DNA of 64,000 nucleotides from Armatimonadetes bacterium DC (GCA_001442985.1 LDYB01000016.1:124001-188000), one strand, 5' to 3'; counted from the stretch's first letter, positions 2,772 to 9,606 are shown. The notes: generated by a model not told the origin, from the sequence alone. Made by a program: numbers and translations.

Positions 2772-5624
2772 CTACCCCTTCACCACACCAATCGGGCGCA
2801 GTTTGGCGACTTTGCGCGAAATGCCCGCGTTATGCACCACCTCCACCACATTCGCCACATCTTTGTAAGCGTAAGACGCCTCTTCGCCGAGCGTGGCTTT
2901 GTTCTGAGCGCGCACGATAATACCCTGCTCTTCCATCTCTTTGGCGATATTGCGCCCGCGCGCCTCGCGCAGTGCGCCCTTGCGGCTCATCATGCGCCCC
3001 GCCCCGTGGCAGGTCGTGCCGAAGGTCTCCTCCATCGCCTTCTGCGTGCCCACCAGCACAAACGAGTAGCGCCCCATATCGCCCGGAATCAGCACAGGCT
3101 GACCCACCTCGCGATAGACTTCGGGCACTTCGGGGTGTCCGGGCGGGAAGGCGCGTGTGGCGCCCTTGCGATGCACGCAGACCTTGATGGGCTTGCCATC
3201 CACGATATGCTCCTCAATCTTGGCGATATTGTGCGCCACATCGTACACCTGTCGGATGCCCAGCGATTCGGGCGTGCTTCGGAACACCTTCGCGAACGCC
3301 TGACGCACCCAGTGCGCAATCGCCTGACGGTTGGCAAACGCGAAGTTCGCCGCACAGTGCATCGCCCGCAGGTAGGTCTGCCCCTCTTCGGAGTTCAGGG
3401 GGGCGCAAGCCAGCTGGCGGTCTGGCAAAACGATACCGTACTTACGATGCGCCTCCTCCATAATGTCCAGATGGTCCTGGCAGGTCTGATGCCCAAACCC
3501 GCGCGAGCCGGTGTGAATCATCACCGTTACCTGTCCCACCTGCGTGATGCCGAACTTCTCGGCGACAACAGGGTCGTAAATTTCGTCCACCACCTGAATT
3601 TCAAGGAAGTGGTTGCCGCCGCCGAGGGTGCCGAGCTGGTCCTTGCCGCGCTCGATGGCTTTCTCGGTGATAGTGTCGGGGTCGGGCATATCCAGCCTGC
3701 CCAGCGCCTCGGTGTGTAGCACATCATCTTCCCAGCCGTAGCCGTGTTCCACCATCCACTGGGCGCCTTTGAGCATGACCTCGCGCAGCTCTTTTTTGTT
3801 GAGTTTAATCAGCCCCTCGCCGCCGAAGCCTGCAGGCACATCGCGGAAAATCTGGTCTACCAGCTCCTTCAGGCGCGGGCGCACCTCTTTTTCGGTCAGG
3901 TCTGTGCGGAGCAGACGGACGCCACAGTTGGACACCACGAACCCGTTTGCGACAAAGTTGTGGTCGGCGTGTTCAACGGTGAGGTCGTACACAAAAGGCT
4001 CGTTGTAATCCACAGGCTCGATGCTCTGAACCGTATCCCAGACCATGCCATCCTCGCCCACCAGCGCAAACTGGACGAACTCGGCGAACGAAGGGAAGTC
4101 TTTGGGGATGCGGGACACACCGCCCACAATCTGTTGCTTGAGCCTCAGGTAGACAACTGCGGCATTCGCCAGTCGCTGGCGGGCGCTGTTGTATTCGTAG
4201 CCAATCTGGCTCCAGAGCCGAATCAGGTTCGAGTCGCTTCCCACAATCTGCAGCCGGCAGCGGAGCGAACACCGCCCTTTCCAGCTCACATACGCAATCT
4301 CCTGCGTGTTATCAAGCAGGCGCGATTGAATGCCGAACCGCAGAAGCATCTGCTTCACATCGGCAAGGAACGCCCAACCCGACTCGACGAACGGCTCGTG
4401 TTTATTGAGGCACAGCAGAGGTGCCTGGAAGGTTGCAGGGTGGTTCGGCAGCGTGCTGGGCGCTCCAAGTTCTGCCCCAAACAGCGCCGCCAGATAGAGT
4501 CGCTGAATCCACAGTGGCTGCGCCATCAGCCACTGGGGTACCCGATATGCCTGCGCTGCCTTGTTGCCCAGTGGCACCCCCAAACACGCCAGCAACGCCA
4601 CAAAGGCGGTGCTGTTCACGCGGAAAGCACTCTCTTGCGCCTCGAATTCGTAGGTGCGGTAGCGGGTTTGTATCCGGTGTCGGCGCTGGCGCGTATAGAT
4701 GCGGGAGGGCTTGAAGCCAATTCGCGCCACATCCATACGGATTCGCTCCAGATTCTCTGGGGCGCCATAGAAGAACGCCACGCCCTTGCCGTTGCCACCT
4801 GCGTAGCGCATCGTGCCATCGCCAGTCAGGTAGCCCATCAGCTTGATCAGCAACGGCAGGCGCGGGTCGTTCGCTCGAAGAGGCAGGAGATTCAGCCGCT
4901 GGAGCTGGCGCAGAATCTGGCGACATGCGTTCTCCGACTTGCCCGCTTGCTGAAGGTGCGTGCGAACAGTTTCTGCGTCCACCAGGAGCGCGTCCGAAGG
5001 CGCCTCATAGGAAACCCCCTCGAAGGGGTAAAGCGCCACGCGCGCGCCCACCTGCAAGGTGTGCAGACGCCTCATCCCCTCAGGCGTCCAGAAGGGATGC
5101 TCTGCTGTCGCCAGCACCTCAAACCCCGTGAGGGTGCGCAGCCGATACACGGGGTTGCGGGGGCGTACCTGCATCATCGCGCCCACGGGCGCCGCCTCGC
5201 GAACGCCCTGCTCAAGATGGAAGCACGCCACGCGCTGGCTCAACCACTGTGCTTGCAGGTCGCCTATACGGAACCAGTAGCCATGCTCGGTCAGCACGCG
5301 CGTGTCGGGATGGAGGCAGTTAATATCGTAGCCGACCCCACCCGGCGAAATCACCCCCTCCTCCAGGTCCATCGCCGCGACGCCCCCAATCGGGAAGCCG
5401 TAGCCCCAGTGGATGTCGGGCATCGCCAGCGACGCCTTCACAATTCCAGGCAAAAAGGCGACATTCGCCACCTGTTCGGGCGCCTGATCCTGCTTAATTT
5501 GCTCTATCATGCGCTTGCTGGCAAAGATGATGCCATCCACGCGCATGCCGGGCTTGTAGCTTTTCGGAATACGCCAGCGATATTCGTCAATCTGCTCCAG
5601 TGGTCCCTTCCAGACCTCGCTCAC
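2772..5624 (-). CDS. rtcB: RtcB tRNA-splicing RNA ligase precursor with in-frame intein
   Basis: GTP/Mn-dependent RNA ligase that joins 2',3'-cyclic phosphate or 3'-phosphate ends to 5'-OH ends, in RNA repair or tRNA splicing. The precursor is 950 residues. The exteins alone total 486, the normal RtcB length. The N-extein ends PGGVGYDIN and the C-extein resumes CGVRLLRTDL, together rebuilding the conserved DINCGVR metal-binding motif; later motifs include GTLGGGNHFLE, MIHTGSRGFGHQ and HGAGRMMSRKGA. The GTG at 5624 is chosen as start because it has a perfect GGGAGG site and a TATAAT box (5650-5655) just upstream. A frame-extending ATG at 5690 would lie upstream of that promoter. The start overlaps the end of mscS by 38 bases. 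No rtcA or archease gene is nearby. Confidence 0.95.
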   Translation of the reverse strand: MSEVWKGPLEQIDEYRWRIPKSYKPGMRVDGIIFASKRMIEQIKQDQAPEQVANVAFLPGIVKASLAMPDIHWGYGFPIGGVAAMDLEEGVISPGGVGYDINCLHPDTRVLTEHGYWFRIGDLQAQWLSQRVACFHLEQGVREAAPVGAMMQVRPRNPVYRLRTLTGFEVLATAEHPFWTPEGMRRLHTLQVGARVALYPFEGVSYEAPSDALLVDAETVRTHLQQAGKSENACRQILRQLQRLNLLPLRANDPRLPLLIKLMGYLTGDGTMRYAGGNGKGVAFFYGAPENLERIRMDVARIGFKPSRIYTRQRRHRIQTRYRTYEFEAQESAFRVNSTAFVALLACLGVPLGNKAAQAYRVPQWLMAQPLWIQRLYLAALFGAELGAPSTLPNHPATFQAPLLCLNKHEPFVESGWAFLADVKQMLLRFGIQSRLLDNTQEIAYVSWKGRCSLRCRLQIVGSDSNLIRLWSQIGYEYNSARQRLANAAVVYLRLKQQIVGGVSRIPKDFPSFAEFVQFALVGEDGMVWDTVQSIEPVDYNEPFVYDLTVEHADHNFVANGFVVSNCGVRLLRTDLTEKEVRPRLKELVDQIFRDVPAGFGGEGLIKLNKKELREVMLKGAQWMVEHGYGWEDDVLHTEALGRLDMPDPDTITEKAIERGKDQLGTLGGGNHFLEIQVVDEIYDPVVAEKFGITQVGQVTVMIHTGSRGFGHQTCQDHLDIMEEAHRKYGIVLPDRQLACAPLNSEEGQTYLRAMHCAANFAFANRQAIAHWVRQAFAKVFRSTPESLGIRQVYDVAHNIAKIEEHIVDGKPIKVCVHRKGATRAFPPGHPEVPEVYREVGQPVLIPGDMGRYSFVLVGTQKAMEETFGTTCHGAGRMMSRKGALREARGRNIAKEMEEQGIIVRAQNKATLGEEASYAYKDVANVVEVVHNAGISRKVAKLRPIGVVKG
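3927..5318 (-). mobile_element. RtcB intein with LAGLIDADG homing-endonuclease domain
   Basis: A 464-residue in-frame intein inserted just before the catalytic Cys of RtcB. Splicing block A starts at Cys1 (CLHPDTRVLTEHGYW); block B has TAEH at intein residues 71-74; blocks F/G are VYDLTVEHADHNFVANGF then VVSN, followed by Cys+1. The central region has two LAGLIDADG-type helices, LMGYLTGDGTM (acidic residue D167) and LYLAALFGAELG (E283), so the endonuclease may still be active. The penultimate residue before the terminal Asn is Ser, not the usual His. Boundaries are exact because removing 464 residues restores DINCGVR. Confidence 0.95.
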
Positions 5625-6558
5625 GGTGAATCCCTCCCGCAGACTCGGTATTATACCCACTGGCTGAAGCCGGCAACGAAGCAGAGTCAATCTGCACCTG
5701 GACCTTCCCCTCGCGCAGATAGAGGTCGCGCTTCGGATAGGGAATCTCTATCCCGTACTCTTTGAACTTGTCATAGATTGCGAAGTTGAGTTCGCTGATG
5801 AGTTTGCCCCGCTGATGCACCAGCGTGGTGGACCACACCCGCAACTCGAACTCCACTGCGCTCTCGCCGAACGCCATCAGGCGCACAGCAGGGGGCGGGT
5901 CTGCCAGCACATCGGGGTGGCTCTCGGCAACCTCGTAGAGCAGCTTTTCCACAAGGCGCAGGTCGCTACCATAGGCAACGCCAATCGGGATTTTGAACCG
6001 TACACGCGGGTCATCACGAGTCCAGTTAATCACAGGCTCCTGAATCAGCATGGAGTTTGGCACCACAATCGCGATGTTATCGTTGGTGATAATGGTAGTT
6101 GCCCGTGTGCCGATTTGCACCACCTTGCCGTCAATATTATTGACCACCACGCGATCGCCCACCTTCACAGGGCGCTCAATTAACAGGATGAGCCCGCTGA
6201 TGAAGTTGCTGGCGATGTTTTGCAGCCCGAAGCCAATCCCCACCCCCAACGCGCCTGCGAACACACTGAGTGCGGTGAGGTCAATCCCGGCGCTCTGGAT
6301 GATGGCTAACCCGCCGAAGAAGAACACGAGGTAGCGCACCAGCGTGCCAATCGCCTCGCGGGCGCCGATGTCCATCGGAGTCCGTTGAAGCGCGCGCACG
6401 ATGAGCCGCCGCGCCAGCGCCGCCAGCCAGTAGAGCAGAATCAGGCTGACCAGCACCATCAGCAACGCGCCTGCGGTAATCGCGCTGTTCCCGACGCGAA
6501 ACAAGGGTGCCTCCAGCCACTCCACAAGACCCCTCGCAAGCTCAAGAAAATGCTCCAT
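5587..6558 (-). CDS. MscS-family small-conductance mechanosensitive channel
   Basis: Inner-membrane channel that releases solutes under hypo-osmotic stress. 323 residues: three membrane segments (about 26-45, 70-90 and the pore helix around 93-115 with GALGVGIGFGLQNIASNFISG), followed by the MscS beta domain (VGDRVVVNNIDGKVVQIGTRAT) and the alpha/beta cytoplasmic domain ending near PKRDLYL. The last 30 residues are low-complexity, and their codons overlap the promoter and start of rtcB by 38 bases. The start is uncertain: this ATG or a TTG six codons upstream at 6576; neither has a clear ribosome site. Confidence 0.88.
   Translation of the reverse strand: MEHFLELARGLVEWLEAPLFRVGNSAITAGALLMVLVSLILLYWLAALARRLIVRALQRTPMDIGAREAIGTLVRYLVFFFGGLAIIQSAGIDLTALSVFAGALGVGIGFGLQNIASNFISGLILLIERPVKVGDRVVVNNIDGKVVQIGTRATTIITNDNIAIVVPNSMLIQEPVINWTRDDPRVRFKIPIGVAYGSDLRLVEKLLYEVAESHPDVLADPPPAVRLMAFGESAVEFELRVWSTTLVHQRGKLISELNFAIYDKFKEYGIEIPYPKRDLYLREGKVQVQIDSASLPASASGYNTESAGGIHRERGLEGTTGAD
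5650..5655 (-). promoter_or_regulatory. -10 box (GGG-TATAAT) of rtcB
   Basis: TATAAT preceded by GGG, 25 bases before the GTG start of rtcB. The gene also has a GGGAGG ribosome site, so this transcript has a short leader. The box lies inside the 3' codons of mscS. Confidence 0.65.
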
Positions 6559-6834: not shown

Positions 6835-6957
6835 GCCCCGACTCAAGAGCCTGAGTCCAGCCGAAAACCGCTTCCTCGCAATTTTCGGGAACCTTTTGGA
6901 GCCCTTTCCCGTAATGCATGGTACACGGTACTCACACCACTATATGGAGGTACAGCA

Positions 6958-7158
6958 ATGGCAAAAGGACTCACCGAAAAGGTCAAAATCAACGATCAGG
7001 AGTTTGAGATTCGGCTCCTGCCGATTACGCCGCAGACCGACAACACGAAGACCACGCTGAACCCGGCGACGGCGACACCGCCCAAAACCGAAGAGGTGGT
7101 GCGCGAGCTGCCTTCGGTAACGCGCCTGCCCCGCTGGGAAGACGGCGCTCCAGCTTAA
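6958..7158 (+). CDS. Small protein leading the ubiquitin-like conjugation operon
   Basis: 66-residue protein I cannot assign by family. The start is well supported by GGAGG 8 bases upstream. The N-terminal part (EKVKINDQEFEIRLLPI) could form a beta-hairpin like the first two strands of a beta-grasp fold. The remainder is rich in Thr/Pro and looks disordered, and the C-terminus is GAPA, not Gly-Gly. As the first gene before E2-like, JAB-E1 and zinc-finger genes it is the positional candidate for the modifier or its precursor/adaptor, because bacterial E1/E2/JAB operons usually encode a small ubiquitin-like protein. The sequence alone does not prove a beta-grasp fold, and it is short for one. 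Confidence 0.65.
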   Translation: MAKGLTEKVKINDQEFEIRLLPITPQTDNTKTTLNPATATPPKTEEVVRELPSVTRLPRWEDGAPA

Positions 7159-7183
7159 AACACACCGGCATTGGGGGGTGCCC

Positions 7184-7218
7184 GGAGTAGGGCATGGGGC
7201 AATCCCATGCTCTACTCC
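7184..7218 (+). promoter_or_regulatory. Strong hairpin between first and second gene of the ubiquitin-like operon
   Basis: A 15-base-pair stem with one G-U pair (7184-7198 with 7204-7218, loop GCAAT), followed by only three T before the AGGAGG ribosome site of the E2-like gene. It could be a leaky terminator, an RNase-processing site or a 3' stabiliser giving the first gene more transcript than the enzymes. The stem is certain; the role is inferred. Confidence 0.6.
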
Positions 7219-7236
7219 TTTCACAGGAGGCAGAGG

Positions 7237-7704
7237 ATGAACGCCAACAAGCGTCTGGAACGGATTGCCTTCGAGCTGGCGCTCTGCGTCGCCACCTACT
7301 CGCGCACGAAAGAGGGCACTTATGATGACGAGTCGGGGGCGTGGGTGATTATCCGTGAGTTTCCCCTGCCAGAAGGCTACAACTACGAAACGACCGATGT
7401 GCTGATTCTGCTCCCGCCGAACTATCCCCAGACGCCGCCCGACTGGTTCTATGTGGACACCAATCTGCGCCTTGCGAACGGCAAAAAACCAGCGCACATC
7501 TTCTACGACGACACGCACGACCCCAACGAAGCCATCTACGGCAATCAGCCGCCAGAGATGCTTGGCTGGACCGCCTGCTGTCTGCACATTCGCGAGTGGA
7601 AGCCTGCCGCGAATCCCATCGAGGGGCACTGCCTGCTGAGCGTGTGTGAGCTGATCAAAAATGCCTTTGAACGGTGGAAGCATGCATCCAGTAGCCTATG
7701 GTGA
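7237..7704 (+). CDS. E2-like ubiquitin-conjugating protein (prokaryotic E2 family E type)
   Basis: 155-residue protein with the layout of the UBC fold: N-terminal helix (NKRLERIAFELALC), strands around residues 36-60, the E2-core proline segment LLPPNYPQTPPDWFYV (58-73), then C114-C115-x-H117 and W121 in WTACCLHIREW, and a C-terminal helix. Bacterial E2-family-E proteins (Prok-E2_E) have a conserved Cys followed by His and Trp here, so C114 or C115 is the likely thioester site. The ATG at 7237 follows a perfect AGGAGG; a longer frame from 7171 would run through the intergenic hairpin. The 3' end overlaps the JAB-E1 start by 23 bases, which implies translational coupling. Predicted role: accept an activated small modifier from the E1 and pass it to a target. 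Confidence 0.82.
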   Translation: MNANKRLERIAFELALCVATYSRTKEGTYDDESGAWVIIREFPLPEGYNYETTDVLILLPPNYPQTPPDWFYVDTNLRLANGKKPAHIFYDDTHDPNEAIYGNQPPEMLGWTACCLHIREWKPAANPIEGHCLLSVCELIKNAFERWKHASSSLW

Positions 7705-9157
7705 GGTGCGCATTCCAGAGCGCCTGTGGCATTGGCTGGAAGCGCTGCTGTTGAGCGAGCGCACGCTGGAGACCAAGTGCTTCATGCTCTGTGAAGCGCT
7801 GGAGTTGCCGGGGCGTGTGGTGTTTCTCGTGCGCGAGCTGGTGCCCCTCTCGGAGGAGGACTACGAGGTGCGCTCGCCGTCGCTGGTGGTCACGCGCCCA
7901 GAGTTTGTCCATCGCCTGCTGGAGCGGTGCTACCGCGAGAACCTCTCGCTGCTGGAGGCGCACTCGCACCCGTGGGCGGGGCACGCCCGCTTCTCTGAAA
8001 CCGACCACCGCAGCGACCGCGAGAAGTTCCGCGCCACCGAGAGCCTCTCGCCCCCCTTCCGACACGGCACGCTGGTGTTCGGCAACGATATGAGCTTCGA
8101 GGGGCACATGTGGGACTGGGTCTCCCAGCAGGTGGTGCCGATTGTGCGGATAGCGATTGTGGGTGTGCCGTATCGCCTGCAGTACGCGACGCCCTATGCC
8201 TATCGGGGCTATGACGCGGCGGTGCAGAGGGTGTACGACCGTCAGGTACGGGCGCTGGGCGCAGAGGGGCAGGCGATTCTGGCGGAGTTGACCGTCGCGC
8301 TGGTGGGCGCGGGCGGGCTGGGGTCGCAAATCGGGCAGGCGCTGGCGCATCTCGGCTTCGGGCAAATCCTCTGGATAGACCCCGACCGACTGGAGCTGAC
8401 GAATCTCAACCGTGTGGTGGGCGCGACCTATGCGCAGGCAAAGCGCGGCGTGCGCAAAGTCAAAGCACTGGCACAACGGCTGAATCGCCTCTGCCCGCCC
8501 GATGAGCCGCGGCGCGTCGTTCCCATCCCCGAAGATGTGCGCACGCCTGAGCTGGCTCCGCTCCTGCTGGGCAGCGACCTGATTATCGGCGCGGTGGACT
8601 CCGCCACTGTGCGCCAGTACCTGAACCTGCTCGCGGTGTGTGGGCTTATCCCTTATCTGGACGCGGGAGTGGGCTTGCGAGCCGAGTACGGGCGCATCCA
8701 CATGGGCGGGGGGCAGGTGCAGGTGGTCGTGCCCTCTGAAACGGCGTGCCTGACCTGCGTGGGCAATCTGGTGCAAGCCAGCGTGGAAGAGCAGCTCACG
8801 CCCGAACAGCGCGAGCGCTCCATCCGTGCAGGCTACATTCAGGGCGAGCGCATCCCCAACCCGCAGGTGGTCTTTTTGAACGGCGTCGTGGCGAACCTGC
8901 TGGTGTGGGAAGCGGTCAAGCTCTGCACGGGCTGCCAGCAGGTGCATCCGTATGTCTACTACGATTTGATTGAACAGACCACCTTTCCTGTGGATGCGCC
9001 GCGCGACCCGAATTGCTACCTCTGCGGCGATTCGCCCGACAGCCTGCTGGGCACGGGAATCAAGGGTGTGCAGGGGTTTATTGAGAAACGCACGGCGCGT
9101 CCCATCCCCACACCGCGCCAGTCCGCCAGTAAAAAGGAGGTTGCGAACGCCGAATGA
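7682..9157 (+). CDS. JAB/JAMM isopeptidase - ThiF/E1 fusion
   Basis: 491-residue two-domain protein. The N-terminal JAB/MPN domain (about 1-160) has a complete JAMM zinc motif: H94-S-H96-P, then seven residues, S105 and D108, with an upstream catalytic Glu (E52 is a candidate). The C-terminal E1/ThiF domain (about 185-430) has the ATP loop GAGGLGS (209-215), WIDPDRLELTNLNR (231-244) with the adenylate-contact Asp, Asn and Arg, and a Zn site of two CxxC pairs (C356/C359 and C445/C448); a further CxxC is at 415/418. One chain can thus adenylate a modifier and also deconjugate or mature it. The ATG at 7682 has GGTGGAAG before it; a start at 7661 is possible. It ends in an ATGA overlap with the next gene. 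Confidence 0.92.
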   Translation: MHPVAYGEVRIPERLWHWLEALLLSERTLETKCFMLCEALELPGRVVFLVRELVPLSEEDYEVRSPSLVVTRPEFVHRLLERCYRENLSLLEAHSHPWAGHARFSETDHRSDREKFRATESLSPPFRHGTLVFGNDMSFEGHMWDWVSQQVVPIVRIAIVGVPYRLQYATPYAYRGYDAAVQRVYDRQVRALGAEGQAILAELTVALVGAGGLGSQIGQALAHLGFGQILWIDPDRLELTNLNRVVGATYAQAKRGVRKVKALAQRLNRLCPPDEPRRVVPIPEDVRTPELAPLLLGSDLIIGAVDSATVRQYLNLLAVCGLIPYLDAGVGLRAEYGRIHMGGGQVQVVVPSETACLTCVGNLVQASVEEQLTPEQRERSIRAGYIQGERIPNPQVVFLNGVVANLLVWEAVKLCTGCQQVHPYVYYDLIEQTTFPVDAPRDPNCYLCGDSPDSLLGTGIKGVQGFIEKRTARPIPTPRQSASKKEVANAE

Positions 9158-9606
9158 AACCGATTCCACCAAACCGACGCTGGAATGGGGGGTCAAATGG
9201 CGCATCGCAGCCGCCTGCGAGCAACAATCCCAATCCATTCGAAGCGATTGTGATTTGCGAACTCAATCTGTCTTCGGACGAGGATTTTGACGCCTTTGAG
9301 CCATTAGAGGAAGACTTTTGCGAGGTGATAATCGCGCCCCTTGCCATCCCTGCCCGCTACAGGGCGACCTGCAGGGCATGCCTGCAGCCCATTCGGGTGG
9401 GGGACGCGATTGTACGCCATGCGCAGGCAGGCTGTTGGGTGCATCAGGCGTGCTATGATCATCCCCTGCGGTCTACGGCGCGTCCCCTGATTGTGGCGCA
9501 ATACGATGGCTACTGCCGTATCTGCCACGGGGGTATCCGAGCAGGCGAACTCATCACGCGCGTGCAGGGGCGCGGCTGGGTTCACGCCCACTGTGTAGAG
9601 GATTAG
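9154..9606 (+). CDS. Tandem CxxC-HxxC zinc-finger protein of the ubiquitin-like operon
   Basis: 150-residue protein, start overlapping the JAB-E1 stop as ATGA. The first 35 residues are Asn/Pro/Ser-rich and probably disordered; residues 36-60 are acidic. Two similar zinc modules follow: C73-x2-C76-x20-H97-x2-C100 and C121-x2-C124-x19-H144-x2-C147, each with the pattern CRxC-x-x-I-R-x-G-(E/D)-x-I and G-x-WVHxxC. Such treble-clef or LIM/RING-like halves bind zinc and often mediate protein contacts. Its place last in an E1-E2 operon makes it a candidate substrate receptor or E3-like factor. It does not have the full cross-brace pattern of a RING, so an E3 function is inference only. The stop is one base from the convergent GH57 gene. 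Confidence 0.82.
   Translation: MKPIPPNRRWNGGSNGASQPPASNNPNPFEAIVICELNLSSDEDFDAFEPLEEDFCEVIIAPLAIPARYRATCRACLQPIRVGDAIVRHAQAGCWVHQACYDHPLRSTARPLIVAQYDGYCRICHGGIRAGELITRVQGRGWVHAHCVED

Follow-up and report, generated by a model that had tools for sequence, protein, structure and literature searches.

E1–E2 cascades are normally bound to the ubiquitin fold. An operon of four genes in Armatimonadetes bacterium DC encodes an E2-like enzyme and a JAB-E1 fusion behind a small protein, G1, which is predicted from modelling to consist of one β-hairpin and an extended tail, too short for a ubiquitin fold. The locus raises the question of whether such a protein could be the modifier that these enzymes conjugate. 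A 64 kb stretch of the genome (here termed the window; G000:C16 in the genome survey) was analysed alongside a survey of 291 Armatimonadota genomes, and close-kin, plasmid and viral searches covered sequences beyond the phylum. Judged from sequence, the operon appears, with a probability of roughly 0.6, to encode a reversible protein-conjugation pathway that is sister to Bub (operon type 6e) and has G1 as a minimal conjugated modifier.

Gene order and its conservation

Re-derivation from the window returned the four co-directional genes at the positions and on the strand claimed in the preliminary description, with overlaps of 23 bases between the E2 and JAB-E1 genes and of 4 bases (ATGA) between the JAB-E1 and zinc-protein genes. 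The motifs named in that description were all found, namely the Cys-Cys-x-His-x3-Trp site of the E2, the JAMM residues H94, H96, S105 and D108, the GAGGLGS loop and the two zinc modules. The ATG start of the E2 gene is preceded by AGGAGG. Approximately 65 bases 5′ of G1 lies a conserved GGAA(A/C)C(T)TTT-like element, a promoter-type motif that in the window reads GGAACCTTTT (6888–6897, plus strand) and that is followed by a TATAAT-like sequence in most relatives; the −10 downstream of GGAACCTTTT is weaker in the window than in those relatives. Elements of this type match twice in 64 kb, compared with 0.5 matches expected. These features suggest, and only suggest, a probable promoter element, for which an ECF-type promoter may be one reading.

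The host belongs to an Armatimonadota family that contains Bacterium HR15 and several Fimbriimonadales MAGs. G1 and the E2 co-occur in this family in 14 of 14 genomes, and G1 lies directly 5′ of the E2 gene in all 18 copies from these genomes. The expectation that G1 co-occurs with the other genes was thus upheld by the neighbourhood survey, in which it is kept in every relative that has them. A check for E1 in 13 genomes of the family found it in the 10 that have a G1–E2 pair and not in the three that lack one, of which one is 85% complete. A JAB-E1 gene follows G1–E2 in 12 of the 18 pairs, and the zinc gene then follows wherever the contig continues; the remaining six pairs have no adjoining JAB-E1. 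Four genomes contain a second G1–E2 pair, with or without a zinc gene, and all four second copies of G1 read WxDGG. In genomes G001 and G006, the only E1 is encoded away from G1–E2. As G1–E2 pairs stand apart from E1 and all G1–E2 genomes checked have an E1, it probably acts in trans, with one E1 serving several pairs. The six cases of separation do not bear out the earlier view of the operon as a self-contained set.

Outside this family, locus L081 (genome G119, family f16) is an operon of G1, E2 and JAB-E1 genes in which the zinc gene is missing; the zinc protein is therefore not universal. A frameshifted G1–E2 relic with no E1 nearby (L082 in genome G121, 5347–5965; ..LPVWESG.., E2 ..WAGGCIH..) is present in another Armatimonadota family, and was left out as evidence of function. 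A scan of 84,980 species, which finds close kin only, returned 16 loci with close E2 relatives, all in Armatimonadota. Searches of 2.9 million viral contigs with the G1 and E2 profiles found no relatives, and G1 was not found in plasmids.

The operon's neighbours in the window are genes that we take, from open reading frames read by eye, to encode DUF2892, MscS-type channel, RtcB, GH57-type and IF-2 proteins; the identity of RtcB was confirmed. This RtcB RNA ligase gene (2772–5690, minus strand) is split by an intein that itself contains a LAGLIDADG-like domain. The flanks of the operon in relatives differ from those in the window. A defence role in the window's family was considered and is unsupported: the flanks are ordinary housekeeping and metabolic genes, and the PADLOC E1–E2 models match the E1 part only. 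L081 has a Replic_Relax gene on one side and, on the other, an Abi_2-like gene whose match falls under the cut-off; nothing else hints at mobility or defence.

A counterpart of the Bub operons

Iyer et al. (2006) described operon type 6e as comprising a multi-ubiquitin protein, an E2-fold protein without the cysteine, a JAB-E1 fusion and a C-x3-C…H-x2-C protein (PMC1779556). These are now the Bub operons, a putative immune pathway for which phage protection is yet to be demonstrated (PMC13373217). The order multiubiquitin, E2/UBC, ThiF and DUF6527 is annotated in Synechocystis pSYSX and in Rhizobium phaseoli. The preliminary description regarded the layout in the window as unmatched by described systems; it is instead a gene-for-gene counterpart of the 6e/Bub class, which that description had not named. 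Both have the same gene order, a Prok-E2_E E2, a JAB domain N-terminal to a ThiF-type E1 and a final small protein with a zinc signature, and Citrobacter BubB and BubCD are the nearest solved structures to the window E2 and JAB-E1. In contrast to Bub operons, the BubA slot holds G1 and not a β-grasp Multi_ubiq protein, the last slot holds a tandem C2HC protein and not DUF6527, and unlinked extra G1–E2 pairs occur in the window's family. The window E2 also has an extra N-terminal helix and an insert, and carries Cys where the aligned Bub E2s carry Ser in the [S/C]-x-H motif. Because the first and last slots hold unrelated-looking proteins, the operon is filed as a sister branch of Bub and not as a member; we regard it as a sister that has diverged from Bub and whose modifier either shed the β-grasp fold or lacked it from the start. 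Variant layouts were also seen elsewhere: in a Bub-type operon on a Deinococcus plasmid (L067, 3711–7605), a phosphotransferase gene separates JAB-E1 from DUF6527, and in L083 and L084 a large gene follows JAB-E1.

The layout is neither that of CBASS nor that of Bil, as had been claimed, for it has no CD-NTase, no Cap2-type fusion and no Bil-type Ubl/E1/JAB. BilABCD resembles it in that a single operon encodes a modifier, E1, E2 and JAB. In that system, BilA contains two Ubl domains, BilB carries a CEHH motif, BilD combines two adenylation domains with a Cys domain, and the JAB protein BilC stands alone (PMC11354881), whereas the window lacks the two-domain Ubl, the CEHH motif and the E1 Cys domain, and its JAB is fused to E1. 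The E1, E2 and JAB activities of CBASS Cap2/Cap3 are also those predicted here, and Cap2 acts on a non-Ubl substrate, which is a precedent for a non-ubiquitin substrate (PMC12355090). Unlike in type II CBASS, the window has no neighbouring CD-NTase, its E2 is separate from E1 and its JAB is fused to E1.

The E2-like enzyme (7237–7704, plus strand; 155 aa) was previously assigned to family E, and it indeed matches Prok-E2_E (PF14462) with E=1e-15 and 58 bits against a cut-off of 25. Modelling agreed with the expected UBC fold. In the AlphaFold2 model (pLDDT 79.5, pTM 0.77), the single significant Foldseek match is Citrobacter BubB (9eae_C; E=1.1e-4), which VIA-align also ranks first (Z 12.4, rmsd 2.6, 120 residues), ahead of eukaryotic E2s at around Z 8. 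The conserved site reads W111-T-A-C114-C115-L-H117-x3-W121, in which C115, next to C114, is the candidate nucleophile together with H117. In a wider alignment, C115 falls in the same column as a Ser in the classical 6e E2s (motif WQRWSRH) and in those of Deinococcus type (FSWH), and H117 matches the His of both motifs. The C115 column is occupied by Cys in the G1-type E2s of the family, in the Armatimonadota loci L085 and L086 and in the relic L082, and by Ser in L081, where the preceding residue is Cys. The simplest inference from these alignments is that the nucleophile may be either Ser or Cys. Non-cysteine chemistry is reportedly discussed in papers on Bub. Acidic E2 tails ending in DDEDPF(A) or similar occur in L021, L023, L026–L028 and L034, and are absent from the window copy.

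The JAB-E1 fusion (7682–9157, plus strand; 491 aa) has an N-terminal JAMM domain and a C-terminal ThiF/E1 domain. It matches ThiF with E=5e-39, and its best match among solved chains is Citrobacter BubCD (E=7e-25), with the JAMM residues coinciding in the alignment. Its Prok-JAB score of 18.9 bits is under the Pfam cut-off of 25, with the JAMM residues all present. Across 22 aligned JAB-E1 proteins, JAMM residues E30, H94, H96, S105 and D108 are invariant, as are adenylation-site residues D233, N241, R244, K259 and D306; the ATP loop GAGGLGS occupies residues 209–215. The identification of a fusion with a complete JAMM therefore stands. A zinc tetrad (C356/C359/C445/C448) is present in all but one of the 22 proteins, among which there is no conserved Cys beyond it that could serve as an E1 thioester cysteine. 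Transfer may thus run directly from the adenylate to the E2.

In the E1 tree, the 12 rows of G1 type cluster together (100/100), and the Ser-type Bub rows lie across a 96/92 branch. The long-branched Armatimonadota proteins of L085 and L086, which have real Ubls, fall on the G1 side, with their exact placement unsure. This grouping supports a sister branch to Bub and not Bub membership. The L085 JAB-E1 (G275:C317, 2409–5594, reverse strand) carries a C-terminally fused domain of the enolase superfamily (MR_MLE_C).

The tandem zinc protein (9154–9606, plus strand; 150 aa) occupies the DUF6527 slot and contains two C2HC modules of the form C-x2-C-x18/19-W-V-H-x2-C, at residues 73 and 121; its relative in L015 has a single module only. 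It has no Pfam family above cut-off, its Prok-RING_1 and PHD matches being under the cut-off, and no DUF6527 match in a search in which the Synechocystis DUF6527 protein scores 3e-22. A RING assignment was rejected, since four ligands are present within each module and the L015 relative has a single module, which leaves no RING cross-brace. A short motif is common to the JAB-E1 C-terminus (KPIPxPRG) and the N-terminus of the zinc protein (KPIPxNRRW) in many copies. This KPIPxxR pair, at 9092–9183 in the window and also in relatives L022–L035, is perhaps a common docking site.

G1 and its C-terminal tail

G1 (6958–7158, plus strand) has 66 aa in the window and 54–70 aa across copies. Its dN/dS is 0.04–0.14 in close pairs, and it is under strong purifying selection. 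Invariant positions include N12, E15, P22 and P25 and are densest at L57, P58, W60, D62 and G63, the tail being the most conserved part of the protein. The window tail reads LPRWEDG followed by APA, and the family pattern is LPxWxDG plus 0–4 variable residues. The position after G63 is Ala in 12, Gly in five and Thr in one of the 18 family copies, and is followed by one to three free residues; everything beyond the Gly varies freely. The L081 copy, of 54 aa, ends in ..NLPVWEDG at its stop codon. A modifier without Gly-Gly had been proposed, which holds for the window copy and does not hold as a general feature, the conserved element being one invariant Gly (WEDG). The invariant Gly, the variable end and the copy that ends at Gly are best read as a C-terminal-glycine modifier trimmed by JAB: the tail would be that of a precursor cut back to the glycine, and L081 would encode a form needing no cut.

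G1 has no match to Pfam or other database families, nor to UBact or Pup, and nothing better than E=0.15 among PDB sequences; the window's genome has no Multi_ubiq Ubl. The AlphaFold2 model that underlies the predicted hairpin-and-tail architecture places strands at residues 5–11 and 14–20 with the rest extended (pLDDT 72, pTM 0.25), at a low confidence and from a shallow alignment of 18 close rows. A fold may form on binding. In profile comparison, the hairpin aligns with the first hairpin (β1–β2) of Bub Ubls over 15 columns (hhalign probability 14%, pairwise E=0.002). With the columns of either side shuffled 300 times, the score was never reached; such shuffles keep no strand periodicity and leave generic β-strand patterns uncontrolled. 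In a control, the highest score for windows of the E1 alignment was 11.3, compared with 20.1 for G1 and the Ubls. This similarity is suggestive, not proof, of descent of G1 from a Ubl. In the nearest JAB-E1 branch, the Ubls terminate in ..DAPQRVKGGC (L085) and ..DAPRFRWGA (L086, there fused to the E2); that of L085 is a separate 70-aa protein ending in KGGC.

A proposed pathway and its rivals

What is observed is the gene content, the active sites and the co-conservation, and from these we infer each transfer step of the following pathway. The JAB half of JAB-E1 would trim the 2–4 residues after the invariant G63 to leave ...LPRWEDG, and the E1 half, which has a complete active site, would adenylate the G1 glycine with ATP. 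G1 would then pass to C115 of the E2, the column that is Ser in Bub E2s, with H117 assisting. The E2 would attach G1 to amino groups of targets, with the zinc protein perhaps acting as an adaptor or E3-like guide, and JAB would remove G1 again. G1 would fill the role of a Ubl by offering its first β-hairpin for docking and its C-terminal tail for chemistry. A fuller version, in which the dedicated modifier is a non-β-grasp protein of 50–65 aa made of a hairpin and a glycine tail, is probably a remnant of the Bub Ubl and is served by a cysteine E2 in an otherwise-serine family, is more tentative and somewhat less probable than its negation.

The constant pairing of G1 with the E2 could also mean that G1 is a permanent E2 cofactor, its hairpin completing the sheet and its tail filling the active site, with the modifier being a MoaD/ThiS-like protein encoded elsewhere. 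G1 accompanies the E2 even at loci without E1, second-copy pairs without a linked E1 likewise fit a non-modifier partner of the E2, and the genome does encode a MoaD–MoeB–rhodanese fusion. This explanation is nevertheless unlikely, as it leaves unaccounted for the invariant Gly with its 0–4 free residues, the L081 copy that ends at Gly, the JAB in the operon and the position of G1 in the BubA slot. ThiS has 66 aa. The 54-aa G1 has approximately 44 residues ahead of its tail, fewer than ThiS, and AlphaFold2 gives G1 neither a helix nor later strands; both points make it rather improbable that G1 is a miniaturised β-grasp, or one completed by a partner on E1 or E2 (helix TPDEILERV, strand SIEQL), in an otherwise ordinary divergent Bub pathway, in favour of which stand the resemblance of the hairpin to Ubl β1–β2 and, in longer copies, what may be a short helix and strand.

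Most improbable is that G1 is a peptide substrate of the E1 half, in the manner of MccB/MccA or RiPPs, with a modified peptide as the product. E1-like enzymes do act on short peptides in the microcin C and pantocin pathways (PMC12250964), and G1 is small and, in its model, largely unstructured. However, no exporter, self-immunity or tailoring genes adjoin the operon, and G1 has no variable core region, its tail being the most conserved part. A UBC-fold E2 and a JAMM protein are also foreign to such pathways, neither JAB nor E2-like proteins being named in PMC12250964.

The same genome encodes a second candidate tagging system. At L090 3092–6366 in G000:C10, a UBact gene (PF20513 9e-24, product ending in KYRQRSGE) has a gene for a PafA/Dop-type Pup ligase on one side and two genes for the 20S proteasome on the other; the MoaD–MoeB–rhodanese fusion is encoded nearby on the opposite strand. 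UBact and Pup resemble G1 in being small, largely disordered proteins with a functional C-terminus; UBact differs in its separate locus and its own PafA-type ligase, which is unrelated in kind to E1/E2. UBact was present in 14 of 16 genomes tested, G1-less ones included, and the two systems are therefore independent.

Should G1 prove to be conjugated, these enzymes may require no more of a Ubl than the hairpin and the tail, and G1 would be the smallest E1/E2-dependent protein tag, of approximately 50 residues and from a thermophile source, attractive for structures and tools. Since close homologues switch between Ser and Cys at a single E2 column, oxyester versus thioester chemistry becomes testable by single substitutions, a question that bears on prokaryotic E2s regarded as 'inactive'. 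With UBact and the proteasome in the same cells, two unrelated tagging systems could be compared in one host.
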